From Cafeteria roenbergensis (taxonomy: Eukaryota > Sar > Bigyra > Bicosoecida > Cafeteriaceae), in contig VLTN01000001.1 of assembly GCA_008330645.1 (NCBI GenBank), positions 496,001-560,000 of the forward strand: 64,000 bases of DNA, written 5' to 3'. Below are positions 29,799 to 49,619 of the stretch, piece by piece. The notes below the pieces were generated by a model, which worked only from the letters and a program-made list of their open reading frames with translations, searched no databases and was not told the origin of the DNA. Numbering within the stretch: position 1 is the stretch's first letter; every line of letters begins with the position of its first letter. The position numbers and the translations under genes were made by a program.

Positions 29799-31330
29799 AT
29801 GGCGAACATCTCGCTCGGGCTGATCTGTGCGGCAGTTTCAGTCCTGTTCTTCGGCTCCAACTGTAAGCAGCAACTGATGCAAGCGCCAACTCAAGTCTGC
29901 GTGGCGCGCGCCTTGGCATGCGCTTCGTCTCCCTTGCGTGCCAGCGCTGTGCGGGACTCGGCATTCCGTGTTCCGTGGCCGCTCCGGCGGCCAGGGGTCA
30001 GGCGGGCACTGGGGGCACCTGCTGGGGTGAGGCCGCGACGCGTGGGGCGGGGGAGCGCGCCTGTCGCGGAGCTCAGGCAGGCAGCTTTGAGGTGGGCGGC
30101 TCCCAGTGGTGGCACGTGGCGCCCCCGTGTGGCTGCACGCGGAGGTCATGCGTGGGGGACGGGTGGTGGCGGGGCGCGCTTCCCCGCAGACCGGGCCTCG
30201 TTGAGCGCCCGCGCCTGTGCGCTGAGGCTTGCGCCTGACTCCCCGCAGTCATCCCCACCAAAGTCTACAAGACCGGCGACGGCGTCTTTTTTCAATGGGT
30301 CCTGTGCACTGGCATCTTGTTGACGGGGACTGTGTGCTTCCTTATTCAGTGCACGATGGGAGCGTCGTGCCCAGCGTTCGAGCCGCTCGCGGTGCTTGGA
30401 GGGGCAATCTGGTGCACAGGCAACATGATGGTTGTGCCGGTGGTCAAGACCATAGGCCTTTCGCTTGGCCTTGTCATCTGGGGCAGCGCCAACCTCATTA
30501 TGGGTTGGGCGTCGGGCAAATTTGGTTTCTTCGGCCTGAAGCCAGAGTCCGTTCCCAACCCCGCCCTCAACTACGTTGGGGTGGTGGTTGCGATTTGCTC
30601 GCTCGTGCTGTCCGTCTTTATTCGCCCTACGGTAGGAAGGGGCGAGCCCGAGGGCGACGGGGAGGACGAGCTCGGCTTCGACTCGGATGACGATAAGCTT
30701 GAGCAAGCGCTCGTGCCGCCCGGTGCAGCGGACTTCGGACAGGGGGTCATCAACACAGACGGGGGCGGGGACACGCGGAGCGTCCTCTCGGAGCTTGAGC
30801 ACGTGGCCGAAGCGGACCAGCAGGAGCTCTTCCTGACCAAGCTCCCGCGTTGGCAGCAGCAAATTGTCGGAGTTACGCTGTCAATTGTGTCTGGGCTGCT
30901 CTACGGTGTAAACTTTGACCCTCCCCAGTACATTGTGGACCACCCTGCCGACTTCCCTGGCGCGCCCAAGCAGCCCGTCGAGCTGGTGTTTTCTCATTTT
31001 GTTGGCATTTGGATGGCGTCGACAGTCTACTTCCTGGCTTATGCCGTGTACATGCGAAACAAGCCTGCGGTCTACCCCAGAGTCATCCTTCCCGCCATTG
31101 TCAGTGGCGTCATGTGGGCCATCGCGGACATTTGCTGGTTCATTGCAAACGCGAACCTGCAGTTCGTCGTCAGCTTCCCGCTGATCACGATGGGTCCGGG
31201 GATCGTAGGCTCTCTTTGGGGCGTGTTTGCGTTTGGGGAGATCCGGGGCACCAGGAATTACTTGATATTGGCGAGCGTGTTCGCCGTCGCGGCGACAGGG
31301 TCTGGCCTGATCATCGCCTCGAAATTTTGA
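29799..31330 (+). CDS. TMEM144: TMEM144-like membrane transporter
   Basis: Exons 29799-29862 and 30249-31330, 381 residues. The 386-bp intron has donor GTAAGC and acceptor CTCCCCGCAG and joins in phase 1, giving FFGSNFIPTKVYKTGDGVFF, the family start. About ten membrane helices in two halves are separated by an acidic loop (GDGEDELGFDSDDDKLEQA, about residues 125-190). Matching signatures include LGGAIWCTGNMMVVPVVKTI, WGSANLIMGWASGKFGFFG, GVTLSIVSGLLYGVNF, SHFVGIWMASTVYFLAY and WFIANANLQFVVSFPLIT. TMEM144 belongs to the drug/metabolite transporter superfamily and is predicted to carry carbohydrate or nucleotide sugar; its real substrate is not known. Confidence 0.92.
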
Positions 31331-31679: not shown

Positions 31680-34600
31680 ATGGCTTCGAGCTGCAGGCCC
31701 GGCCCACGGCCCGCCGAAGCCTTCGCAAGCCCGCTTTTCCAGCAGTCCATTGTGGGCTGCACAATCAACGTGAGGCATCTCGGTGCCAGCGTTTTCCGGC
31801 CTCGCGCTTCCCCGGGAACTGGGCTTCGGCAGAAAGCTCCCCGATTGCGTCCTGCTTCAGCCCCAGCGCCCCTTGCCGGGGGCTGGCAGGCGCACACGCA
31901 AGGGTGGAACCTGCCTGTGCGCAGGCCGGCGGGTTGGTCTTCCAGGCCCGCCTCGCTGGTTTCTGCGTTGAGACAAGAGCCTGTGTCAGGCAGACACTTG
32001 CCGCGGGCCACGGCGCGCCTCACCCCCTGTGATTCCACGGCAGCTTGCTTTGTGCTTGTTTCGCGACGGTTTCTGCGCGTTTCAGGTGTTCTTCGAGGGC
32101 GATGAGCCAGGTTGGTTTGAAGGTCGGGTCGTCGGTGTGGACCCGCTTCGCGGCGTGGTGGTGCACTACTTGGCCACGGACGAAATCATGGCCCACGACC
32201 TCACGAGCGAACCCTTCGCGGTGTCCACTCGCCTGGTTTGGGCGCGGCAGGCCGGCGGGTCTTGGTGGCCAGCGTCGCAGATGCTCTACTCGTCGCAGCC
32301 TCAGTCCCTCGCTCAGTGGCGCCAGCAGGTGAACGGGACCGTGTTCCTGTCTTTCTTCCCGGATCAATCCCTGGGGAAGGCCAGCGCAGCGCAGGGGGGC
32401 ATCCTTCCATTCGACCTTCCCCCCTGCGCTCCGAAAACGGCTGCCATTGCGTCGGCCACGGCGGCCGCCTTGCGGGAACAGGCGGCCATGGCCCGCGCTC
32501 GGCGAAGGTGGCTGCTCAGGCTTGCCCCCCTCGGGTCGGGGTTGCACCCGCCCGTCACTTCGAAGCCAGCCAAGGGGAGCAGCAGCTCGGCACCTGGGGC
32601 AGCGCCGGCCTTTCCTTCTATCGGCAGGTCGTGGGTGTCACTGACATCGGGTGGGCGCCGCTTCAGAGTGTGGGTGGTGCGGCAGTCCGATGTGTCAGGG
32701 GCCCATTTGTGCTGCGTGCCAGCGGACGGAACCGCGCCGGCACAGACCGAGGCCGACACGGCTGATGCGCCACCTGCAGCGCAGGCGGCGCTCCTGGCCG
32801 CGCCAGATGAGGCCGGAGGCGGCGCGGGCGTGCAGCCCGACAGAGGGGACCCCCTGGTCGCGACCGTCGGCTGGCTGCACATCGCTGCCTTCTTGCCTCA
32901 CTGGGGGCCAAACGGTGGTGCTGCGCGTGCCGAGGCGGTTCTGCCGCTTGCGGCCCAAGGTGTCCCTCCTCGCTGCCTTGTTGGCCCTGCGGGCGTGGCC
33001 ACTCTGCCTGCCTTGCACCTTCACGGGGTGCACATTCCTGGCTCGCCGATGCACCCCATCCCTAGGGTGAGATCGACAGACATGTCCCCGTCATCAAGGC
33101 CGGTTGGGGCCGCCTCAGCAGCGAGGCGCAATGCTCTCGGCGACTCTCGAGTGTGCAGCCTCACAGGCCTAGCTGCCAGTGATGGCTGGGGCCGGCTGGC
33201 GGCTGCCTCATCGCTACCGCTTGTTCCGACCGCGCAGCCGAGGCTGCTTGTCCGCTGCGCCGCTTGCACGGTGATGGTCCACCCAGTTGCGGCGGCGGAC
33301 CGCAGCCCTGGCCTGTCCCACAACTGGGAAGCCTCCGGGTGTTTGCCTCGCCGCGACTGGAGACCGGAGCCTCGCGAAGTTGCGCTGAACTCCAAGTGGT
33401 GGGCGGGCGGGTTCGAATCGGCACAGCGGCAGCTGCGCTCTCTCCAGGCCCTACCGCGCACGACCAGCAGCTCAGATGCTGCCCCCCCTCTCCGATTCTC
33501 TGATGCGGAGTTTTGGAAGTGCGACGACCCGGTCCAGCCCGAGGTGGCAAACGCCGCGGCAGACGCGGAGCTTGCAGACGAGTGGTTCAAGGACCGCCAG
33601 CAGTGGGTGCTGCGAACTCCCCGGGCAAACGCCGGAAAGGCTGACGCCGCATCGACCGAGCGTCCTGACCGAGCGCACTCAGCGGCATCTGCCACGGCGG
33701 CAGGCGGGGCCCCGGACGCGGCGTCGGAGGCTGGCCAGGTTCAAGCCGCGGAGTACGCTGAGGCGCTTGCCGCGGCAGCCAGCCCCTGGCCCTGGCCCCA
33801 GGGCCAGCAAGCAATTCAGTGGACTCACGCAGCCATGCCTCTGTCTCCCAGGGGCGAGCCTCTGGCCCCATGGAAGGGGTGGGAGGGCGGCCTGGCCCCC
33901 AGCGACCGCTCGTCCTCACGTGGCCTACCAGGGGCCTCCGCTGCCCTCACTGGCTGGCTATGCCCACAGTGCGAGTTCTGCGGTAGCTGTGGGGCACCCC
34001 ACCCGCTTGGCGATCAGCAGCCTGAGAGAGGAAGCCTGGAAGCCGCGGTTCCGAGCGCGAGGCTGGGAGAGACTGAAGCCTCCGGTGACGGCTTGCAGGT
34101 GCAGGATGCTGGGCTCACGACCGCAGGCTCAGGGGACCTCGTCCCTGACATAGCCTGCTCTTCGTCGTCTTCGTCGTCTTCGTCTTCGTCGTCGTCGTCG
34201 TCGGAGCCGCCGCCGCCGCCGCCGCCGCCGGCAGAGGCTGCTCTGCCTCTGACAGACGAGGCCCCCACTGCCTCGGACGATGGAGCCAAGCCCATTCTTC
34301 CTCTTCCCGACCCCGAGACACTGGCGTTCCAGACTCGCCTCGTGCGACCGGTTGACCCAGCTCTCGGCCTAGGCGCTGGCAAAGGCGTGATCGCTGTGAG
34401 TGCGTTCGAGCGAGAGGTCCGTTCCGCTTGCCCTGCGCTCCACCGGTGCATCGCCTGGGCAGGCGCCAAGGCCGGCTTCGGCACGGCCACGCCTGGAGTG
34501 GCGCCTACCACATCGGACATCCCGCCGCTGCCAGGGTTCCTCTTCACCGTGGTCAACGCCGCGTTGTGCCACCCGTGGCAGCTGCGCTTGGCAGAAGACG

Positions 34601-37600
34601 GCTCTGACGCCCGGGATGCCGCAGCCACGGACCGGCAGGACAGTGGTTTGTCCAGGCCGTGGCTGCGGCCTATGCGCGAGTGGTCACTGGCATCGGCAGC
34701 AGTGTCTGGAAGTGCGGAAGCTCTGGGAGTTACGCCTCTGGCCGACTTGTCCGCGCGGGCAGGCGAGCTGCGACGCATCGAGGTTGCCGGAGGTAACATC
34801 ATGGCCGTTGTAGCTGGGTCAGGCCAAGTCCCCAAGCACAAGGCAGGCAGGGTCTCGTCGGCAGCGGAGGCTGGGCGAACCGGGCAGCTCAAACCGCAAG
34901 CCGCAGGCGCGGGACGACAGGGCCAGTCCAAACGCGGCGCTGCCAGGGCCGTCGCTAGTTCTGCAGCGACTGCAGCGAGCGAGCCAGGCCGCCCAGGACG
35001 CGGACGGGGGCGGGGGCGAGGAGGCGGACGCGGACGCGGACGCGGACGCGGGCGCCACCCCAAGGCGGCAGCTTCTGCCGCAGTGACTGCAGTGGCGACT
35101 GGCTCCAAGAGCACATCTGGCCGGCCTCGCGGCGGAGGCGGGGACCGAGCAACCTCCGGATCCCGCGGCAGAGGAGCAGCCGCGACTGCCAAGTCGGGTG
35201 CTTCGGACAAGGCGGCAGGACTTCGGGCAGCAGAAAAGCGCGCGCGACAAGCCTCTGTCGCCAGCACTGACCCTGCCGCCGACGCGGACGATGGTGACTC
35301 GGACTCGGACTCTGAGTCATTGGTTGGACCCCCTGCCCTTGCCTCTGCCTGGGACAGACCTCGGGCTTCGGATGCGTGGCTGCGAGGCGGCGGGCCCTTC
35401 CAAGCCTGGTCCTTGAGTGGCGACGACGTGTTGTGCCCGCCGTGGCGCACCGGGCCACAGTGCGACCTGGCAGCGGCGGCTTCCAGCGCGCTTCCGCCGC
35501 TGGTGCTGTCAGACATGCCGCACGCTCCTCCGCCCCGGCCTGTCTCGCTGTGTCGGCAGTGCTCTGCCTGCTTCGAGGTGGCCGAGTACTGCCCCGTCAC
35601 GTTGCAAGCCTACAGCCCGGAGGCAACGCATATGGTGGCATGCGAGGGTTGCGGGATGTGGGTCCACGCAGGGGCCGACGGGTTTAGCGAGGCCGATGTG
35701 CGCGACCTCTCCGAAGGGCGGCACCGCCACTGCGGCGGCGTTTACCTGTGCCCCACGTGTCGCTCGACCCTGATGGCACGGCTGCTGTCCTTCATGATCC
35801 ACGAGAATCGCTCAGGCATCTTCGCCGCCCCGGTCACGGATGAGGTTGCGCCCGGCTACAGCGAAGTGGTAGGGCGTCCGATGGACCTCTTCACAATGTC
35901 CCGCCGCCTGGCCCACGGGGTGTACTCCGGCACCGGCGGCCCGCAGCGCTTCCGGGTGGATGCCGAGCAGATCGCAATCAATGCGCTGGCCTACAACTCG
36001 AGAGGGGATAAGACCTGGAAGGAGGCGCGCCGCTTCTTGCTGGCGCTGTCCCGCGCAACGGATGCTGTCTTTCCCTTCACTCACAACGGGGCATTTGCGG
36101 CGAAGATTGCCGCTGCTCTCGGTGAGGCAGCTCCCGGGCGCACGCCCATGGCACACCATGCGGTGTGGACTCCCGGAAACCCGCTCGGCGATGCAGAGGC
36201 GTCCGGCTTAGATGTGTCTGCCGCGTCCAGGGACACGAAGCTGGCGGGAGGCGTTCGCGGTGCGGACATCTTGCAGCGCCAGCATGAGCAGCAAGTGCTC
36301 GAGCTTCGGGCCAAGAGCGGAGGGGCCGTCGCGCTGGTGTCCCAGAGCGCTGTTGCGCCGGCGCTGGGCCAAAAGGTTGCCGCGGGCCCTCCCGATGAGC
36401 CAGCGCTGGCTTTGCCAGCTGCTGCGACCGCCGCGCCCGATTCGGAGGCCGACTCCAGCTGCCCTCCCTCAACCCCAGCGTCCACGCTCGCTCCGTCGTC
36501 GCAGCCCAGCCCTGATGGCCGCCTCGGCCGTAGCTCCTCCCGGGGCGGTGCCGACGCGGGGTCACGGCCTCATCAGCCGGCTGACAGCACAGTGCTTGCT
36601 GCTCTTGCTACGGACGCGGCAGCAGCCAGAGGGCGCGGCGGCGCGCCGCTTGGGCGGAGAGCAGTCGGGTCATGGAAGGCCGTGCTCCGGGTTCCCAGCA
36701 AACTGGCCATTTGGACTGCCACCGCTGACATGTGCGCCTATACGGGCGAGCTGGTTCGGGCATGGGAGGCTGCGGTCTGCATGCTGTGTGGCGAGGCCTT
36801 CACCAAAGCCGCGCTGGTCCCACCAGGCGCCCTCCCGCCCTACAACGACGAAGCCGGGGTCCCCATGCGGCCAGTGGAGGGACTAGGCGGGGGTGGCAGT
36901 CGCGCCTGGGCGTGCAAAGTTTGCTCGCAGGCGTGCGGGGCGGACGAAATGGCCGCACTCCTCTCTCAGTGCGACTCCTGCGGAGGCGACACGGACGCGC
37001 TCGGCATCGCTGCGGCGGAGGAGCTCGAGTCTATCGTGCGGGTGCTGCAGTCCGCGACTGCAGCCGGCGGAGGGCCAGGGCCTGCCTGGGCTCCCGGAGA
37101 TGCCACTTGGCCATGGTCTTGGCGCCCGGAGGCCGTGCAAGCGCGCTCGGAGGCGGCGCACTGCTCCGCTGGTTTTCGCCCGTTGGCTCTCCTTGACGCA
37201 GTCCAGCGCGTCTCGAGCGCTGCGGGTCTCCCCGCCACGGCGCAGGTCGTCGCATCGAGCGCCTTCGAAGCGGCGGTTCTCCATCACGCAAGGGGCGTCC
37301 AAGCGAGACGCATTGCTTTGCGCCAAGCTCGCCGTGCGGCAGCTGTTGGCGCCATGGCTGTCGCATCCACGGAACCAGTGGTTGCCGTTGGGCGGCTCTA
37401 CCGCGAAGCTCGGGCGGTCCCCACAGCAGATGCCGGTGTGGTTGCGTCTGAGTCGGCCACTTCGGCGGGGCCTGCGGGCACAGAGCTCGTGGCTGGGGCT
37501 GCGGACGCCTCAAGCCCCGCTGAAGCCGCAGCCACGGTGAAGCGACACATGGGGTGGCCAGAAAACTGCCCCATCGCCCCGGTTTGCGCCCATGCCGCGC

Positions 37601-40600
37601 GTCTCCTTCAGGATGTGAGAAGGGGAAGCGTAAACAGTCCCGCGTGGCTCCAGGCGTGGCTCTCAAGTCCGCTTTTGGGACGATTGGCGGAGGCTGGGAC
37701 ACACGAGCCCGCGGCAAAGCGGGCCAGACCGCACTCTGGCCTAGCCCTTGCGGCAGGGCCGCTCGCAGCTGATGCGCCGCGCAGTTGCGCTGCGGAGCCC
37801 GGTGGCAACACTAGCGACTCGCCGCACGACATGGCCCCGACGCTGAAGCGACCCAGGAGCGAGGAGGGAGCCGAGCCGAGCTCGTTCGTCCAGCAGGTGG
37901 TCGATGGCTGTGCAGTCCCTCGCTGGCTCGCTGCACGCGCGTCGCATTTTGCAAACGCCTTCGCCGCGGCTCTCGAGGAAGAGCGGAGCTCGGGCGCCAG
38001 CGTGAGCGTTGAAGCGGTGGCGTCTGGCTTGCCTGTGGGCGAGGCCCCGGGCGCGGCTGCACTCCTGCTGGTCCTGGGCGCGGCGCTGTCGCGGACCGAC
38101 CCAGTGGCCTCTCGCAAGGCGGTGGCTGGGGTCCCTGGCGTGCCAAGCGGTGTGGCCCTTGCCCAAGCTGCCGCAGCGGCGAGCGCGCAGGAGTCTGCGG
38201 CAACGTGCGCGACAGAAGCTATCCGCGCTTTGGCAGCTTTGCGCGTGGCAGACGGACGCCAGGCGAGTCCCAGCGTGCAAGCTGCGGACAGGGTGTCCAG
38301 CCTCCCAGCTGCTGCTCCCGCAGCGCCCTGGATGCCGTCGTCGGGCTTCGTGCCCCGGGCCTCCAGGGCGGATCTGCCGGTTGGCGCTGCCTCGCCCGCT
38401 TCTGCGTGTCTTTCAAGGCCGTTTACGCTGTTTCCAAGCGCATCGATGGCGCGCGAGGCGACTCTTTGTGCGGCCACAGCGGTCCCAACCCAAGGGACGA
38501 TCGGCGGGTTGTGCCCGGCTGTTCCAGCGGACGCGGCCGCTGACTTTGCAGCGTGGTACGCGGACATGCTCCGACAGCGAGTGGAGGCAGCGGGAGGCCA
38601 AGCCCAAGGCGCGCCTCCCGCGGCGGCATCGATGCTTGCTGGCCCTGGGAGGGAGGGCGCCATCGTACCGGTGCACGCGGCCGGCACGCTGCCGCTGTCG
38701 GCGAGAGGCGCCCCGAGCCTCCTCGATTGGGTCGGCGTGGGTCTTTCGGCCACTGGCTTGCCTTTGCGCAGGGCGGCGGCCGCGGCGCTGCGCCGTGTGG
38801 TGGCAGAGTCTGTCGAGGCCGCTGCGCAGCCGGAGGCGCTGGCATCGGTGCGGCTGGTTCCAGCAACGGTGGCGCCGATGGCCGGCACGGAGCAGTCAAC
38901 GCTTCTGCGCAAATGGGCAACTGCGCTGGCCGAAAGGGGTGCCCATGGGGCAGTCAACGCGGCAACCACGTTCGCTGCGGTTCTGCTGGCCGCTGGGGGC
39001 GGAGACCCACGCGCCCCTGTGGCGTGGGACCCTTGCACGTTTGCCGGTGGTCTCGATGCCCATGGCCTCGGCGGGCAAGGCCCCAGCGGGTCAGACGCGG
39101 CAGCAGCGCCAGGCGCCTCAAGCTCGTCCAGCCGACTGGGGGACCAGGAGGTCGAGAGCTTCGGAGGGGGCCGCGCTTCGCGGACCCGCCGCACAGCTGG
39201 CGCATCGGGGGACGACGGCGATAGCACGCCTCGCCCAGGCGGATCGCCCCATGCGGACGGAGGCGGTGCTTCCGAAGCGAAAGGAGGCTCGCACGGGCAA
39301 CTGGCGCCCAGCTCAAGCGCGTCGTCCACGGCTCCAGGCTCAAGCGCACAGCAGAGTGCCGGTGGAAGCGTCATGGCGCCAGGAACCGCAACTTCAGGGC
39401 CTGCGCACGGCTCTGGTGGGGGTGGCAGCAGCGGTGGCGGTGGCGGTAGCAGTGGTGGCGGTGGTGGCGGCGGCATAGGCCAGTCTGGCTCTTTTGTTGG
39501 CGACGCTGTGCTCGAAGCTGATGGGGGACCCAATGTGGCGCTGCCCGTGGACGTGGCACTTGCCCTTGGCCTGTCCGCGGCACTGCCGTCAGCGGCTGCA
39601 GAATCGCAGCGGGCCAGGGGCAGCGCCACTCCGGGGCAAATGGTGACTGCAACCCGTCTGCTGCCCGAAATGCCGACGGCGTCGTGCTTCCCCCTTGCAA
39701 GCGCCCGCCCCGGCTCCGTGTCGTCCATGGATGGTGCGCAGGCGCGCGTCGCAGGCATCATCGCGGAGCGCAGCTGGGCTCGCATCCGCTCGGACTTGAG
39801 CGACGGAGCCAAGAAACCCTTTGCCGCAGTCCGGTCAGGGGCCGTTACGGTCTGCGCGTGGGGCCGCATTCTGCCCCCTGGGCTGGCGGATGAGGCGTTC
39901 GTGTTGCCCACCGCCGACTCAGACGGAAGCGGCGACCTGCCACTGCCCCTCGGCTTTGTTTCGCGGCGCGTTTGGTGGTCGCCTCGTGGAGGGCGCACGC
40001 GTTGCTCCTGGGCATGCAGCGTCCAGTGCCGGCTTCGAGCCAATCATGCAGGGGCGAGAGTGCTGCGACCCTGGTTTGTGGTGGAGTGTGATGAAGACGC
40101 GCCCGGCCTTCCCACCAAGCGCCACAGAGTGTCGGGATGGACTTTGCAAGGTAAGATCTGCGATGGCCGGACAGCATTGGGTTTGCCGGAGCCGCTCAAG
40201 CGGGTCGAGCCAGCTGCTCGCGCGTGACGCTCTCGCGCCCCAGTCTACCCGCTCCCCGCTTCTCATTTCGTTCTGCCGTTCGTTCCGCAGCTGTGCAAGA
40301 CGCAGTGGTGTCTCTTGCAGCCGACGCACCGGCCATGAGCTTCTTGGCCTCAGCTACATCGCGTTCCGCGTTGAGCAGGCTGGGCCCCGGGTGGTTTTTC
40401 GGCTTCCAGGACGAGGCCGTTGCGGAGGGGATTCTCAGCTTGCCCGAGAAGCGGCTGTGCGACTTGGCGGCTGGCCGCCTGTCGGGTGCTGTGTCGGACG
40501 CAGAGGCCCGCGCCGTTGCGACGCTGGAGGCGCTCACGCTCGATGTGGTGCTGCCGCCTTGGTCGATGGCAGGCATTGGCTCGACAAAGCGCTGCCAGCC

Positions 40601-41279
40601 TGCAGGGAAGCGTGCATCGGGCCCCGAAGCAGACTTTTCGGCCTCCGGGCCGCAAGTCTCGCCGGAGCAGCGCGACGGCAACACGGCGGGACCCAAAGAG
40701 GCGCTGAGCGCGGCGCAGGTGTCCAGCCTGCTGCAAGGCCTTGACCGAGAGCCCCTCGCGGAGCGAGTGCGGGCGCGCAAGTCGGACATCCACGGCTGGG
40801 GCCTCTTTGCCAAGCGCAAATTGCGCAAAGGAGGTGAGTGCTGTCCTGACCTCGGGCGGAGGTTCTGGCTGCTTGAGCGCCAAGTGTCTCACACGAATGC
40901 CACTGGCCGCTTCACGCTTGCGACACCCGCCTTCCGAGCTCTTGCTTTGGTGTTCGCAGAGATTGTCATCGAGTATACGGGCCACCTGATATCTTCGGGG
41001 GTAGCCGACCTTCGAGAACAGGAGTACGCGGAAAAGAAGCTCGGAGGAAGCTGTTACCTGTTCCGCATGGATGACGACGCGATTGCTGACGCAACCTTGC
41101 GGGGGTCTTGCGCCCGCTTCATCAACCACTCGGGGGCGCCGAATTGCGACTCTCGCGTTGTGGCCGGCGTGGACGGAAACAAGGCAATCGTGATTCAGGC
41201 ACTCCGTGACGTCGACCCAGGCGAGGAGGTCACATACGACTACAAGTTCCCCTTTGACTTTGCGCAGAGCCAAGTTTGA
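31680..41279 (+). CDS. Trithorax/ATX-type histone H3K4 methyltransferase (PWWP-PHD-bromo-FYR-SET)
   Basis: Exons 31680-31769, 32086-40150, 40291-40833 and 40960-41279; 3005 residues. Donors GTGAGG, GTAAGA, GTGAGT; acceptors TTTCAG, CCGCAG, TCGCAG; every phase fits. Domains in order: Tudor/agenet-like (IVGCTIN spliced to VFFEGDEPGWFEGR, about 23-75); PWWP (LVWARQAGGSWWPA, about 79-135); Ser/Pro tract (about 722-747); RG-rich basic patch (about 997-1022); PHD finger (CRQCSACFEV to LCPTC, about 1184-1256); bromodomain (about 1257-1359, VGRPMDLFTMSRRLAHGVY); a second Cys-rich module (VCMLCGEAF to QCDSCGGD, about 1594-1665); FYRN (PLGFVSRRVWWS) and FYRC (PGWFFGFQDEAV), about 2650-2780; SET (SDIHGWGLFAKR to TYDYKFPFDF, about 2877-3002). 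Such enzymes methylate H3K4 at active genes. The SET domain ends at once after YDYKFPFDFAQSQV with no post-SET, and NHSC reads NHSG. Confidence 0.9.
34160..34230 (+). repeat. TCN/CCG trinucleotide repeat inside the methyltransferase exon
   Basis: Interrupted run of TTC/GTC trinucleotides (frame reads TCG/TCT/TCC) followed by pure GCC/CCG, translated as about 15 Ser, then EPP and a Pro run. Likely length-variable between strains. Confidence 0.85.
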
Positions 41280-41844
41280 AGGGCCGTGGGAAGTTGCGTG
41301 AGGAATCCGCTGCAGCCGCCATTCTCAAGAGCGCATGCTCATCGTTGCTTGCTCCTCAAACCATCACGCGCTGAGCCGCGAGCCGGCGTTGCACAGGTGC
41401 GCCGGACTGAGTCCTCGCCAGGGTTTCTGGCTCAGAGGTGTTTGGTCACTGCTTGACCTTCAGCGCGGCCAGATGCCTTGGGTGGCCTGCCTACCCCCGC
41501 CTGCGAGCCCCTTGCCGGCGCTCAGCCAACTGTGAAGCTCTCAGCCCGCCATGCGGCGAGCGACGCGCTTCGCCCACCCGACCTTTGCCGCCGCCCAGCC
41601 ACCCGCCGTGCAAGACGCTCGCAGACGACGAACCCGCCCGTGGCAAAGGAACGCCCGGGGTGGCACTTGCACATCTGCATGGCCGCTTGCAGCTCGAGGC
41701 CCCTGCTGGCGCTGCGGCAAGCGAAGCGGCGAAGCCCTTGCACCCGCGATGACCGATGCGGTCAAGGCATGGGCTCCCTAAGTGAGCCGGTCAGACAGGG
41801 GCAGAGGCCGAGCGGATGCACGGAGTCGGAAGCGTGGACGCAAG
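41280..41844. other. Convergent 3' region, methyltransferase / ARL-like
   Basis: 565 bp between two facing stop codons. I searched the plus-strand frames for a CxCx4C post-SET exon and found none. No RNA gene or recognisable protein seen. Confidence 0.45.
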
Positions 41845-43019
41845 TTAGCCCCGCAGGAGAGGGCGTTCAAGCTCAGAGCGGGGCCCCGTTCGCGTGGGGC
41901 GTGTCGCCGTCGGCTTGCTCTCCTCCGCCACGCGCGGGCCGAGTACGGCCAGGCCGTTCCCCACACAGCGTAGAAGCCATGAGAGCCCCCCAAAAAAGGC
42001 ACGCGTCGTCATGGCAGTGGGGCACTTGGCAGCGCAGGCCACGCTGTGATGCCGGCTGAATAGCAGCACCTGGTCCGCTCCAATCATAGTGCCAGCCTCG
42101 CTGGTCCAGCCGCTTGCGTCCGACTTGTTCAGCACTCTGCGGCGCGAAGGATGGGCACCAGGGACGCCAACAGGAGTGCGTGAGGAAGAGGCACACAAGT
42201 GGGGCGCGTCCACGGGCCCCGGCAGAACCACCACGCACACCCAGCGCGACCTGCTCCGCAGCGGCCAGGGGCGAAGGGGGCGCGGTGGCGAGTGCACAGG
42301 GGTCGGGGGCTTGCTGACATGAGAATTGGCTTGCCAAGTGCCGCTGGCGAATCGGCCACAACCGCCAGCTCGTGCTTGGCCTCCGCAAACCGCGCCTCGT
42401 CCGACGCGTCCAGAACAAAAATGATACCGTGCACCTGCAGGCCAGGCAGAGAGCAGCAGCAAGTGTGCGCATAGGGCTTCACAAGGAGCCGGCGAGGGAA
42501 TGCGCGCTTGCGCGTCCGCAAGCGCTCGCCGAGCCAGAGTCGCAAGCCAATCGCCAGGACCTGGAAGCGGGGGGGTGGCGCACCATGCGGCGGGCCGGCA
42601 CGCGGTGACCAGCGCGCCTGTGATGCCGGCTCACCTTCTTGTAGAGGTCGCCCCAGAGCGAGCGGAACTCGCGGCCGCCGCCCACATCGTGAATTGCCAC
42701 CTTGCTGCCGAATTGCTCGACGCACAGGCACTCTCCGAGTCCAACGGTCGGCACCGTGCTACTATCCAGTCCTGCGGTAAGGGCCGCGCGCGCCCATGTC
42801 GAGAAGCTGGGGCGGGAGCGTGGCCAAAGCGTCGCCTGAACGCAACGGCCCAGAGTTGGCGCCCGCGACGCGGAGCTCACGGCCTCGAAGCAGACTCTGG
42901 AGCGTCGTCTTTCCAGCCCCGTCCAGGCCCACAAGGCACACGTTCATGCACCGAGCGGGGTCATCCGAGCCACGGACGGTGGCCAGAGGAGCGACCCTGG
43001 CGCTGCTTGCGCATCCCAT
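41845..43019 (-). CDS. ARF/ARL-family small GTPase, ARL13-like
   Basis: Exons 43019-42881, 42771-42635, 42434-42319 and 42136-41845, 227 residues; phases 1, 0 and 2 all fit. Donors are GTGAGC, GTGAGC and the unusual GTCAGC. G1 is GLDGAGKT, G2 the Thr of TVPTVGLGE, G3 reads HDVGGG rather than DxGGQ, G4 is NKSD (ILIVLNKSD across the last splice) and G5 is probably CAAK. The DVGGG motif, lacking the Gln used for GTP hydrolysis, is typical of ARL13, the ciliary-membrane GTPase that activates ARL3. The start MGCASS is a textbook N-myristoylation plus palmitoylation signal. The ARL13 C-terminal coiled coil and proline-rich tail are missing; the protein ends soon after GGLSWLL. Another ARL with a GGG motif is possible. 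The 237 bp before it is shared with NCAPD3. Confidence 0.7.
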
Positions 43020-43256
43020 ACTTTTCGCCCGCTGAGCTAGCGAAATCCCCGATGCGCCCCGCTTTGCACGAGCAAGGTGGAGCCGTGTTGACGGAGGGGA
43101 TTTTGAGCGTCCGCTGCGCTTGCGGGTGGGGGGAGGGGGCAACGTGCGCACCAGATGCAACCGCATCTGCCGTTGACGGCCATGCTCGGCTCTGCCGCCC
43201 GTTGGCGGGCCAGCGACCACAGTGCGCCTCCAGCGCAAGCGAGGCCACGCGCAGGG

Positions 43257-44357
43257 ATGGAGCGCTTCCTGGGCGCGCTGGCGAATGACCTTTTTGACTC
43301 GATCGAAGGGTCCGCTGCGGCAGTGTCCTTGGACGCGCGCGGGGAGGGGGAGTCAGTTGAATTTGCCCCTGCTCCAACGGCCGACCTCTTGGAGGAGCTG
43401 GGCGCGTCCCTGTCTCCCCTGGTGCTGGCCATTCACGAGTCACCGGGCTGGAGCCCTGACCAGGCAGCTGGGTACGGCCTCGTCTCGGCCCCGCACTTTT
43501 GGGAGGCGCTGCAAGGCAGCAGGGCTGGCGACACCGGCGTCGGCGCCCTGGTCCGGCTGCTTCTGGCTGGCATGCGCAGCGCGCAGATCCCCAAGGACAA
43601 GCTTGCCGGCGTTGTGACTTGCGACAAGAAAGGCTCCGCGCCCAGGGATCGTGCCCTTTGGCGGTGCGGCAATGCCGCAGCTGTTGCGTACCTTGCTCTG
43701 ATGCAAGTTCCGGGCGCCCGGTCGTTCGACGCCGTGCACGAGGCTGCCATTATCCTTGCGGCCGAGCACCTGGAAGCATCTGCCACGGCCGTTTCGTTTG
43801 CAACCCGTGCTGCAGGAAAGGCGGGCGGAGCGTCAGCCGAGGCCATGAGCGGGCTGGCGCGGCTGGCCTCAGCGGTGAGCGGCGCCTTGCGCTGGTCGTC
43901 ACTTGTCATGCACGACGATGCCCGCGCAGCTTGTGCAACAGCCGCGGCAGCGACCATCGCCGCGGCGTCGCCTCTGCAGCGCAAGCGCGGGCATGCAGAG
44001 AGCGCGGCTGCCGCTTGCAGGCACGCAAAGGCCGCCGCCTTGGAGGCCATGCACCCTCGCCACGGCCAGCCGCTTGCGCTTGCCAGGCGAGTGATGCGGG
44101 CTTTGAAGCCTGTCATTGACGGCACGCACCCAGCCCTTGCTGGGGCTTCGGAGACGGCTTCGAGAACGGCGCAGCGCACGGCTCTCGACGCCGTCCTGGC
44201 AAGCATCGACGTGTTTGCGCCGTGGGTCGCATCCAAGGGGATGCTACGCTCAGGGGTTGCCGCACATGCAGTCGCTGCCGCAGGGCGCCCAGGTGCCCCG
44301 GCTGACAGCGACCCCGAAAAGGCAGCAGCCGCTGCATCCGACCATGGCGCCGGCATG

Positions 44358-44388
<31 letters not shown>

Positions 44389-47300
44389 ACGACGACGACG
44401 ACGACGACGGTGCAGATGCGGACGCGTCGCTGGAGCTTGGCGCGGCCAAGCCAAGCTGGCATCAGCTGGACGTCAGCAAGACCCCAGTGCGCGCGGTGGC
44501 GGAGCGCCTGCCGGCCGCGCTTGCTCTGGCGCAGCACGCCGTGACAGGAGCAGCAGACACCGCTCCTGCGCGGAGGCGGGCCGCAGCCGCGGTTGCCGGG
44601 ATCATGCCGGCGCTGCCGCACCAGTACCGCCGCGCCCTCGCAGCCTTCCTGAGGCGCCTCTCTCGCTGCTCGTCAGCGAGGCGCAGGAGCGCAGCGGTGG
44701 ATGCCATGGGAGCGTGCCTGATGGCCACTCCGGTCGGTCCGCGCTGCCCCGCCGGCACGGCAGGCTGGACCTTGTGGGCTGACGCTGGCTCGCCCTCCCA
44801 GGCCGAGGCAGCAGCCGCCGCGCTTGTTCAGGCGGCGGTGTCCGCTTCGGCTGTGGACGAGGACGACGAGGGGGTCTACGAGGACAGCGACGACGAGGAC
44901 AGCGGCAGCGCCGGCCGCGCAGGCGAGGGGTCTTCTCCCTTTGCCTCGCCATCAGCTCGAGGCTGCAAGGCCCGGACTGCCAGGACGCCCGCCACTGCGC
45001 TGAGCGGGAGGCGCCGCTCCACAGGCGCCCGCCGCGCCCACGTGGCGACCCCGGGCTCGGCTGGCCTGGGAGCGCTCACGCCTGTCACCGGCCGGGGACG
45101 GGCCTCGGTAGGAGGCGCGTCCACGGCCTCTGGGTTCGGTGCGGAGGAGCTCGAGGGACAGTCCGTCGCGACGCTGGCTAGAAGCCTCGGCAGGGCGTGG
45201 ACGGGTGCGGTCCTCGCCGACGCTCTGGTGCGGCGCTGCTCCGACCGCTCCCCCGCCGTGCGTGCCCGGGGGCTGGTTGTGTGCGGGACGCTGGTGAGCG
45301 AGACCAGCAAGACGGCGGGCTGGGCTGCTGGGCAGGGGCCGACACCGAGCGTGGCGCCGAGAGCTGTGGCGGTGGCAGCCATGCAGGCTGCCGCTCGTCA
45401 CATGGCAAGGGAGGCCGCGGCTGCTGCGGCACAAGAGGCGGGTGCATCTGCGGCGGCTGCAAAGGTGGTGAGCAGCGTGACGGACGCTTCGTTCCTGCTC
45501 GCTGGGGGCGAGGATGGCGACGAGGACGACCCAGCGCCGCTCTCGCCGCTGTTGCCGCTGCTCCTTCGGCGCATGCAAGATCCCAAGCCGGCAGTGCGCA
45601 AGGCCGCGGTGGCAATGCTCGGGGGTGTGGCCGTGTCGGGCGGCTTTTGCGCTGCTGGCCGCGCCGATGCCGACGACGAGGAGAGCGACGCAGACAGCGG
45701 CGACGGCGGCCATGGGCCAGGATCAAAGGCGTCGGCCCCCGCGGCTGGATTGGCCGACGCCGGGACTGCGGCGACGCGCAAGACCAAGGCAAAGCAGAGG
45801 CGCAGAGCCCAAGACAGCGGGAGCGAAAGCGACAGCGAAAGCGACAGCGGGAGCGAAAGCGACGGAGACGAGCGTGCCCGTTCGCGCGCCTCTGCTTCTG
45901 CTTTGCCGGAGGCAGCGACGAGCAGCGGGTCGGTGGCAGACAGGGGCCCCCTGGCCGGGTGCGCATGGGCCGACCTGTCCGTCTTGGCCGGAGGCATTGC
46001 CTCGGGCGAGCGTGGCCGGGCGCAGGCGCCATCGTCGTGCGTGGGTGTCTACGCCCTGCAAGCGCTTGCTGCGGCCTGCGCCGACGAGTCGACGAGCGTT
46101 CGCAAGGCAGCCCTCGACGCCATCTCGCTCGTCTTCCAGGTGGAGCCGTCCACGCCGGCAGTTCACCAACTGTGGCTTGCTTGCGCGCCACCGATGGCGA
46201 TGGACACGGAACCAACTGTTGCCAAGGCCGCCGTCGCTGCCGTGGCTGCTGGCCTGCTCGTCCCGGTTGCGACTCTGAAGCCGGCTCCCTGCTCCGGCGG
46301 TCCCGGCGTCGCAGTGGCACACCACGCGTCCAGCTTCGTGTGGTCGGCCCTGGCAGCCATGGTGTCTCACCCTGACTTGGTGTCCTGCCTCCGGACGTGC
46401 GTGGCGGCAGCGGCTGCTGACGGTCTCGTCGACCTTCCAGCCCTCGCAAAGGCCACGTGGCGATTTGGCTGTAGCGTGCCGGGCGCCGAGGGCGCTCCCC
46501 AAGCGACAGTGGAGGCACTGAACCGCTGCGCAGGAGCATGGGCGCTTCTCGACGCCGTTGCGCGTGCCGTCGCGGCAGCGGACGCCAAGTCCGCTTCTGG
46601 AGAGAGCGCGACATCGTCCAGGACCGCGGGGGTCGCCGCTGCCTCAGCCGCAGCTGCTCCAGCTCGCCGGGGACAGGCATGCGGCCCGAGCAAGGCGCTC
46701 AAGCAGGCCGGTGTCACAGATGCGGCAGTCGGAGAGGCTTGGGCCCAGGTTGACCGCGTGCTTTCAGACGCGCAAGCGGGCACAGGGGCGTTTGCACGAG
46801 ACGCCGCAGACCCCGCAGGCCGCGCGCTCGTGGTGGGCCGCATCACGGCGATGGCGTCCACCGTGCTTGAGGTCCTTGCCCAGGTCAGCGGCAGCTTGGT
46901 GGTGGCAGAGGGCGCTGGCAAGGGCCGGGTCTTGCGAGTCCGTGCCGACGACATCGGAGTCACAGGCTCTGGCACGTCTCGCCTTTCCGAGACGGCGCGG
47001 CGAGCGGGCGCCACATGCGGCGCTCTGGTTGAGGGATGCCTCCGCTTTGCGTGGCCGTCGAGCCTCGTGTCGTCGGCCGTCAGTGCGGCAGGCATGCTTG
47101 CACGGACGGCGGCCTTGCCCGCCGTGGCAAAGGCCCTCCCAGCCAGCGCCCGTGACGGGGCGTTCGTGCTAGTCGCTGAGGAGGACCTGGACAGTGCAGC
47201 TGCCGACCTATGGGCCCCCCGCCTGCTGGAGGCTTGCGAGGCCGGGCTTGTCGGATTCGTCGTGCAAACAGGCGGGGCGACGGGGCACGCCGGCGCGATG

Positions 47301-49619
47301 GGGGGGCTTCCGAGAGACCCTGCCGCGCTGGAGGACGCCGTCGTTCGGCGGCTCTTCTTGGCTGGGCAGGTGTGCTTGTGGGGGCTGGACGTGAACAACA
47401 ACGACGTCACTCCGGGGCGCCAGAAGCAGCGGGGGCTGGCGAAGCGCGCGCGGGCCGCGCTGGAAGCAGGAGAGGAAACCGCAGGAATTCGAGTGCCCGC
47501 CGCCCTCGTCAGCGCGATTCAGGCCGCTGCAGCGCCAACCATTACCGCGGACGACGCCGTGTCGGCGGGCTCAGAGGCACGCCAAACGCCGCCAGCGGTT
47601 CGTGCGCACGCGTTTGCGGCGCTGGGAAAGGCGTGCCTGCGGCTGCCCAAGGTGGCCAAGGCCTCGGTGGCCGCCTTTGTGCGAGAGCTCTCTGCCGGTC
47701 ATGCCTCGGGCAGCAGCGTCACCGGCAGCGCCCCTGCCATCCGCAACAACGCGCTCTTTGCGCTTGCGGACCTGTGCGTGCGGTACACCTCCCTGGTGGA
47801 CGTGCACCTGCCGGCCATCGCTGCGGCTTGCGCCGACGAGCACCCTGCAGTGCGTCGCCACGCGGTGCTGTTGCTCTCCCAGCTGGTGCAGCGAGACTTC
47901 ATCAAGTGGCGGCCGGTGCTGTTCCACCGGCTGGCTGCCGCGATGGCCGACCCTGTTCCCTCGGTCAGGAGCGCGGCGTCGGACGCGCTGACGGGGCCCT
48001 TGAACCTTAAGGACCCGCACCTGCTCCCAGGCATGCTCGTTGAGGGCATGTTTGTGCTGGCCGGGTGCGTCTCTCACCCCGAGATGAACAGGGACGGGAG
48101 AGCAGCAGCCTTGGCAGACCCCGCCTCGGAGCGCGCAGCACTGGCAGCCGGCCCGGCGTGGTCGGAGCAGTCGTGGAGGCGCCGCTTCTCGCCCCAGGAC
48201 CCGCGCGGCCTGGCCCTCCTTGGCCCCGGCGCCCGCAGGCGCAGGCTGGGTGTGATGCGCCAACTGCTTCGGGCCATGTCCGACGACGGGCGCCTCAAGG
48301 TCCTGTCCAAGCTCGTGACCGACGTGGTCGGTGCGGCGGCCGACGGGGCGTTCTCCCTCCCGCCGCGCACCCAGCTGGCAAGGCACGCCTCCGCCGCCGC
48401 TCTTTCGACCCCGGGCGGGGCTGGCTCTGCTGGGCCGGGCGTGGCGACCGTCCCAGACGGCGAGCAGGCCCCCGCGGGCCCCGAGGCCATGATTATGGAC
48501 GCGCTGGAGCTGCTTGCCAGCGAGGAGCTGCGCTTCGGCGCCTCCGCCGCAGCGAGGGCAGACGCCGACGCGGACGGTGCGGTGGACGAGCTCACAGGGG
48601 GAGGAGCTGCCTCCGATGCCGCTGCTCAGGCGGGGGGCGCAACCACCACCGCGCAAGCTGTTGCGGCGGCCACTCGCAAGGCGCTCGCTGGCGTGGCCAG
48701 GCGCTTCGTGCTCGAAACTGGCGTGCCGGCGGCCATTGGCGTGCGCTCCGACTTTGCCAGGGCCCGTTCCCCTGCAGCAGGCCGAGTGCTCGTTTGGCTC
48801 TGCAGCGTGGCAGAGCACTACGGCGAGCAGGCAGTGAGGGAGGCGCTGGCCAATGACCCGCGCCTTGCCGACGAGGTCACCTTCGACGTGCGGCGAGCGG
48901 CGAAGGCCCGAGTGGCGTCGGAGCGCAAGCGCAAGCGCAGTGCTGCTGCGGCGAGGGCGGAGGCTGTGCGCGAGCTGGCCGAGGTGGCCTTGGCGAGGCG
49001 AGCGGGGCATGCGCCTGTCCTGCCAGGCGCGCCCTCGACTCCCGGCTCTGGTTCGCGTGCTCGTCATCAGTCCCGGCAAGGCGCGAGCCCGGAGGACTTC
49101 ACACCGGGCCAACGCAACCCTCAGGCGGGTTCCCGCAGGAGCAGCTCCGGCCTTGCCAGCCTGAGCGGCGGAATCACGCCGCGGCCACTGGCCGGCGGCC
49201 CCAACGATTCGCTCCCACTTGACGCGCGCTCGCCAGCTGGCCACGCCCGGGCGTCGGAAGCCGCGTCCAGGGTCTCGTCTGAGCGCAGGGTGCAGCCATC
49301 AGCGCTCAAGCTCGCCGTTCGCGCCGACACTGCCGCAGCGGCTTTCTCCGTAGCCGCTGCGTCGCTAGCTGCAGCAGCGGACAGCGACAGCGACGGCGAG
49401 AGCGACGATGGGACCGACGCTGATGGCGCCGGTGCTCTTGGCGCTGCTGCTTCGGCATCGCGCACAGTCGCGATGGCGTCGCCGGACGCCAAGCCCTTGC
49501 GACCGCGAAAGTGGGGCCTCAACGCGGAGCGCATGGGCGCGGACTCCAAGGCTCCGCAGGTCGAAGACGATGAGGCTGAGGCTGCGGGAAAGCCTGCCAA
49601 GCGCGCCCGGGCGCTGTGA
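43257..49619 (+). CDS. NCAPD3: Condensin-2 complex subunit D3
   Basis: 2120 residues from the ATG at 43257 (MERFLGALANDLFDSIEG); an in-frame ATG at 43155 would add 34 residues. HEAT-repeat subunit of condensin II, which shapes chromosomes in the nucleus and at mitosis. The diagnostic block lies around residues 1490-1610: IRNNALFALADLCVRYTSLV, HPAVRRHAVLLLSQLVQRDF, KWRPVLFHRLAAAMADP. It is followed by RRLGVMRQLLRAMSDDGRLK and FADGxL-like AAADGAFSLPP, all in the order seen in animal NCAPD3. HEAT-like helices fill much of the rest. The protein is much longer than the human one (about 1500) because of Ala-rich inserts and acidic tracts, notably an Asp run at about residues 367-390 and ESDSESDSGSESD near 860. 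The C-terminus is basic and disordered (KPAKRARAL), like the phosphorylated tail of the family. One exon. Confidence 0.88.
44356..44420 (+). repeat. GAYGCC and GAC repeat coding an Asp/Ala tract
   Basis: Four GATGCC-type hexamers run into eight GAC codons inside NCAPD3 and encode an acidic Asp-Ala then poly-Asp stretch. Confidence 0.85.

Follow-up and report, generated by a model that had tools for sequence, protein, structure and literature searches.

A KMT2-type SET domain without its zinc site in Cafeteria roenbergensis and four relatives

The window analysed here, a stretch of 64,000 nucleotides from the bicosoecid Cafeteria roenbergensis (contig VLTN01000001.1, positions 496,001 to 560,000), carries a KMT2-like (MLL-like, trithorax-class) gene whose protein ends in a SET domain that has lost both halves of its zinc site, namely the Cys of the NHSC motif and the CxCx4C of the post-SET. 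The same state is found in four relatives, which form one clade with the window sequence and in which the checked catalytic positions are retained. Our favoured reading, which we hold to be probable, is that of a trithorax/MLL-type (KMT2-derived) enzyme that lost both halves of its zinc site in the common ancestor of a small protist clade and would still be a methyltransferase, most likely for lysine 4 of histone H3 (H3K4), with a site completed by partners or the nucleosome.

Loss of both halves of the zinc site

The motif INHSGAPNC lies at 41121-41147, the active-site element YDYKFP begins at 41235, and the reading frame closes with TGA at 41277-41279, directly after YDYKFPFDFAQSQV. The two altered places are:

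41133..41135, plus strand: GGG (Gly) in INHSGAPNC, in the place of the zinc-binding Cys of KMT2 enzymes
41253..41276, plus strand: short C-terminal tail FDFAQSQV in place of the post-SET CxCx4C

An earlier note on this DNA had claimed Gly for Cys in this motif, which the codon bears out when read directly, and a stop four residues after YDYKFPFDF, of which the early stop stands and the count does not, as five residues (AQSQV) follow. It had also found no post-SET, and a strict CxCx4C is likewise absent from the three plus-strand frames of 41200-44500. A looser scan gave two hits of other spacing, at 43115 and 44363, and two CxC pairs occur in 41.25-43.15 kb, at 42430 and 43115. As candidates for a missed post-SET, both pairs were rejected: the nearest look-alike, at 42430 (IPCTCRPGREQQQVCA), is spaced CxCx9C instead of CxCx4C, and the edge of a weak Arf match (42351-42437) runs over it on the other strand; the one at 43115, spaced CxCx7C, lies near the start of the next plus-strand open frame but in a different frame.

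Searches were made with the spliced SET domain as query (6 hits) and with a profile built from the first four sequences (2344 hits, the best 120 of them examined). They yielded four close relatives with the double loss: P0001 (90% identical, motif NHSG, ending in FDFAQEHV), P0002 (79%, NHSG, FDFAK), P0003 (79%, NHSN, FDFAKE) and P0007 (64%, NHSQ, FDFTRDA). All four stop 2-5 residues after KFPFDF. They are predicted proteins from contigs, of which P0001-P0003 are partial and start inside the SET domain and the open frame of P0007 spans the whole of it; in four of the five clade members, the last exon has a mean column identity of 86%. Because four database relatives carry the same double loss, the state of the window sequence is more than chance. 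The earlier note had argued that losing both halves together points to a real zinc-free domain of trithorax class or to a dead enzyme, and the sharing of this joint loss by five sequences of one clade strengthens that argument. Viral contigs scanned with the clade profile gave 31 matches to the pattern but no confirmed relative, and a query of 1813 residues found three longer relatives (P0124-P0126), all with the zinc site.

The comparison with KMT2 homologues that the earlier note had proposed was run on 48 of 126 proteins, picked after a pattern sort, together with the window and three SET domains from its own genome. With P0126 and the own-genome rows left out, 43 canonical rows were counted; the choice of rows favoured complete ends, so that this number pictures the canonical state and is not an unbiased rate. 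All four cysteines (that of the motif and the three of the post-SET) are present in 43/43 canonical rows and in 0/5 clade members, and the alignment places the V of two clade tails against the first post-SET Cys. The CY, RFINH, YDY and KF columns are unchanged in all five members, and columns 134 (Y), 157 (N), 158 (H), 206 and 208 (both Y), which hold the catalytic Tyr and the Asn-His that binds S-adenosylmethionine (SAM), are identical in them; of the SAM site, the Glu-Tyr-x-Gly can be read in four members and the GxG ahead of it in two, each time conserved. Marks specific to the clade are PNCD and the FDF after KFP, whose last F occurs in none of the 43 canonical rows. Another zinc arrangement in the clade was considered and rejected, as the remaining cysteines of the last exon (in SCYLF, SCARF or MCGS, and PNC) sit in columns where Cys is also present, or variable, among the canonical rows, none of them at a post-SET position.

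In the pattern sort of 123 homologues, 107 have both the motif Cys and the post-SET, 4 have neither (P0001, P0002, P0003 and P0007) and 12 fall elsewhere. Among the latter, P0004 has NHSC and CRCGAPQC, which the pattern missed; P0071, P0076 and P0089 break off within the post-SET (CLCGS.., CNCGSRR and CRCSTT); P0087, P0105 and P0106 read NASC, with the Cys kept, and have the post-SET; in P0119, which has an inserted stretch, both NHSC and the post-SET are present; and P0005 is an upstream fragment. P0036 and P0083 keep NHSC and end soon after YDYK without a post-SET, with ends that look like read-through, and P0064 combines NHSC with CNYGGKRC, in which one post-SET Cys is altered; these three KMT2-like records, the only cases of a motif Cys without a full post-SET, are probably cut or altered. 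A non-Cys motif together with an intact post-SET was found in 0/123 homologues. Judged by these patterns, the coupling of the motif Cys with the post-SET has no clear break among the 123 homologues, and in a Cryptosporidium survey, every SET domain with a post-SET is described as retaining the motif Cys (PMC9487757).

Descent, predicted fold and known relatives

Trees were built after the trait column and the tail had been taken out, and in both of them the five loss sequences form one group (98/88), so placed that a single change of state suffices for the loss of the zinc site. A branch of 0.59 leads to the four closest clade members. In the first tree, the clade lies within a 15-row group with KMT2A/B-type rows (97/81); in the second, from which three long rows were removed, this wider group is not strongly supported and the loss clade still has 98/88. 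Its origin within KMT2 is thus firm by sequence similarity, its exact placement not fixed.

The best match of the window SET domain among PDB sequences is KMT2A (1.7e-37), followed, as the next family, by EZH1 (2e-21). AlphaFold models were made of the relative P0007 and of a canonical control, P0008, from the same 42 sequences, and the best of five was taken for each, the other models being lower. That of P0007 has a mean predicted local distance difference test score (pLDDT) of 88, with most of the core above 90 and residues 145-152 (the tail PFDFTRDA) below 50; in the control, the last three blocks, post-SET included, reach 82-88. A Foldseek search with the P0007 model returned MLL1-4 or yeast COMPASS at ranks 1-30, with PRC2 next. 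The structure prediction called for by the earlier note, run here on this relative, thus gives a confident MLL-like core and leaves the tail at low confidence; judged from the models, the SET core of the clade should adopt the MLL fold and be open on the post-SET side. The assignment to the trithorax class, also made in that note, agrees with the KMT2A/MLL1-like sequence of the window domain and with the predicted fold of P0007. Membership of the EZH (KMT6) family was rejected, as the domain is nearer to KMT2 than to EZH by sequence (window) and by Foldseek (P0007), and no CXC domain was found in a Pfam scan of 413 residues ending in the SET domain, where SET, FYRN and a weak off-target hit were the only matches. 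By sequence, the protein is KMT2-derived and not a standard KMT2, because all four zinc-site cysteines are absent in the five clade members.

With KMT2A and KMT2B (MLL1/MLL2, Trithorax) it shares a bromodomain, a borderline FYRN, a C-terminal SET domain and the RFINH and YDYKFP elements; unlike them, the clade is without the NHSC Cys and the post-SET CxCx4C, and hence without such a zinc site, and in its proteins 8-11 residues follow the active-site YDY. The protist protein P0124 (FYRN, FYRC, SET) and P0069 from Phytophthora capsici resemble it in the SET core and in a similar helix-like pre-SET stretch (e.g., QLYRELKAVPFSQRL and QYRELRRRPFDERM), but both retain the motif Cys (NHCC and NHSC) and CxCx4C. 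In plants, a close comparison is with KMT2 group 1 (ATX1/ATX2). Proteins of this group are described as combining PWWP, FYR and SET in one chain (PMC3264562); the window protein likewise has PWWP-like (weak), FYR-like (borderline) and SET parts, but it has lost the post-SET and carries a bromodomain.

Zinc-free SET domains exist in other families. SETD8 and ATXR5/6 are zinc-free SET enzymes that end soon after the SET domain and provide an active precedent; they resemble the clade in the short C-terminal end and the absence of zinc, but belong to different SET families. The SET domains of EZH1 and EZH2, too, are not known to hold a post-SET zinc cluster. That of EZH2 is described as needing partner subunits to complete a working site (PMC3868588, PMC8106495, PMC7412744), and its post-SET segment still measures 22 residues (PMC3868588), while the clade has only 5-8 residues after KFP. 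Among KMT1 enzymes, DIM5 of Beauveria bassiana is reported to have no predicted post-SET, a loss confined to a few related fungi, and its gene is still needed for trimethylation of H3 lysine 9 (H3K9me3) (PMC8115510); unlike the clade proteins, it is a KMT1 and not a KMT2, and a long C-terminal tail remains. In the open-licence PMC literature, we came upon no KMT2 enzyme described as lacking the zinc site, which is not proof that none exists. What appears new here is thus a zinc-free KMT2 variant; zinc-free SET families elsewhere and the loss of the post-SET in a KMT1 enzyme were already known.

The gene, its surroundings and its genome

The predicted product of the gene is a large protein of KMT2/MLL type with a bromodomain and a SET domain, a borderline FYRN, and weak PHD, PWWP and FYRC matches; its splices were read from frame and signals, not from transcripts:

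31972..40150, plus strand: long coding stretch of the KMT2-like gene (the open frame begins at 31972, which is not a proven start codon)
32230..32418, plus strand: PWWP-like domain, weak (Pfam E 0.003, 18.5 bits against a cut-off of 25.6)
ahead of the bromodomain, plus strand: PHD finger, weak (E 0.0056, 17.1 bits against a cut-off of 24)
35779..36030, plus strand: bromodomain (Pfam E 1.8e-13)
39943..40026, plus strand: FYRN motif, borderline (Pfam)
40151..40290, plus strand: putative intron GTAAGA...CCGCAG
40291..40833, plus strand: exon with the FYRC region, a linker and the first SET strands (SDIHGWGLFAKRKLRKG)
40834..40959, plus strand: putative intron GTGAGT...TTCGCAG, 126 bases
40960..41279, plus strand: last exon, with the remainder of the SET domain and then the stop

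FYRN scores 24.9 bits on a short piece and 20.0 and 23.8 on longer pieces (cut-off 24), and FYRC, across the next intron, is weak (12.1 bits against a cut-off of 21). On the spliced sequence, the Pfam match to SET reaches 2.4e-23. It starts at about 40794, upstream of the second intron, whose first base, 40834, the earlier note had mistaken for the start of the feature. The relative P0005 seems to run into an intron at the equivalent position. In the window, this intron contains no in-frame stop and one open frame spans it; its retention would insert 42 residues early in the SET domain and leave the frame intact.

The C-terminal part of a membrane-transporter-like protein (30800-31330, plus strand, judged by eye) apparently lies directly upstream of the KMT2-like gene. 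Downstream, two weak Arf-family pieces, both below the Pfam cut-off, suggest a convergent gene for an Arf-like GTPase on the minus strand (42129-42943); the Arf-like piece had no match among PDB sequences. They are followed by an open frame of 2170 codons (43107-49619, plus strand) with condensin (Cnd1) and HEAT matches.

A published TBP primer that had been used on strain RCC970-E3 (PMC6972860) matches the genome (36,303,456 bases in 167 contigs) at one place, with one mismatch. The genome was searched for further SET domains and for possible partners. Of 13 SET matches, 12 could be read and one (L015) gave no motif; family labels were assigned by eye, and unseen exons could alter single rows. 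A Cys cluster follows the SET domain wherever the motif Cys is present (L004, L005, L007, L011 and L014) and is absent wherever that Cys is absent (L001, L002, which is the window gene, the SETD8-like L003, L008 and L013); L006 and L012 are other SET types. L001, EZH-like by this labelling, reads NHSK and is without CxCx4C. The SET1-like L005 (NHCC, CNCGARSCRGSLN) has an intact zinc site, so the organism keeps a standard enzyme besides the window gene. L005 (G000:C1:1095886 onward) carries a long low-complexity insert within its SET domain, between NHCC and YDYQF.

Histone H3 starts with MARTKQTARKS, with K4 kept, in the 6 loci read of 12 returned. The many histone-fold matches cluster on few contigs (G000:C73, C27 and C54), on both strands, and ten share the top score. 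DPY-30 and SPRY domains are present in the genome. An FYRC search of the genome gave no match, but no control matched either.

An enzyme without zinc, or a reader that was once an enzyme

Two explanations would make the loss only apparent. The more serious of them, that a missed last exon codes for CxCx4C and the apparent stop is intronic, we regard as improbable. The protein ends of P0002 (..AK) and P0003 (..AKE) would also arise if a GTAAG or GTGAG donor had been read through in phase 2, as far as a donor can be deduced from protein ends, but by the usual donor rule, GTRAGT, the last codons of the window gene (CAA GTT TGA) make only a poor donor; the stretch of 41.2-44.5 kb, with no CxCx4C in its plus-strand frames, already contains the weak Arf-like gene, on its minus strand, and the beginning of the condensin-like gene; and a missed exon does not explain why the NHSC Cys is also replaced in all five members. 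An error of sequencing or assembly, for which no support was found, is so improbable that it hardly needs to be entertained: GGG is two base changes away from either Cys codon, four other sequences share the state, and a C. roenbergensis assembly resembling the source genome is described as polished with PacBio and Illumina reads (PMC6972860). The earlier note had itself named a missed CxCx4C exon and a mis-sequenced Cys as what would overturn its claim; the four relatives, together with the scan of the sequence downstream, make both unlikely.

Taking the loss as real, the common ancestor of the clade would have lost the NHSC Cys and the post-SET, leaving a SET core that ends in KFPFDF and a SAM/lysine channel open on the side where the post-SET normally sits. 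This channel may be completed by RbBP5/ASH2L-type partners and the nucleosome once the protein has docked with them, in the way that EZH2 is completed by its PRC2 partners, or by another part of the protein; we lean to such completion because the clade keeps the chemistry but has lost the wall. Since the checked catalytic positions are unchanged in all five members, we infer that the enzyme is still a methyltransferase, most likely for H3K4. The Asn of NHSC, which we take to be Asn3906 of MLL1, is one of these positions. In MLL1, Asn3906 is described as required for SAM binding (PMC3887211), and the WRAD partners as steadying SET-I and the post-SET in MLL enzymes (PMC8106495). More tentative, and on balance doubtful in this specific form, is the proposal of an H3K4-class methyltransferase with a split active site, in which a partner subunit, its own N-terminal part or the nucleosome would supply the missing wall, and which would be active only on chromatin and indifferent to zinc.

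Several observations weigh against an active enzyme. Zinc is said to be needed for catalysis by MLL1 (PMC3887211), and the post-SET is described as always part of the cofactor site in SAM-bound SET structures (PMC3868588), so its loss could mean a dead enzyme. The Gly at the end of SET-I (37/43 canonical rows) is changed in all five clade members and an Arg (38/43) in four of them; the modelled tail of P0007 shows no folded substitute for the post-SET; the canonical L005 could carry H3K4 methylation alone; and no ASH2L could be named from the SPRY loci, with the ASH2 PHD model matching neither the genome nor any control. The main rival is accordingly a pseudoenzyme, in which the loss of the zinc site ended catalysis and the protein persists as a reader and scaffold, a role served by its bromodomain and its PHD-like, PWWP-like and FYR parts, with L005 making the mark. 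The need for zinc in MLL1, the second KMT2-like gene with its intact site, the long branch to the four closest members and the low-confidence tail of the P0007 model would all fit it. We nevertheless consider it unlikely, and less likely than an active enzyme, because the checked catalytic positions are unchanged in all five members; the high conservation of the last exon in four of them also speaks against it.

A natural KMT2 lineage without the zinc site but with the catalytic residues would be a ready test of the role of the post-SET and of the completion of the site by partners, and the clade could show whether zinc serves the chemistry of these enzymes or only their structure and regulation.
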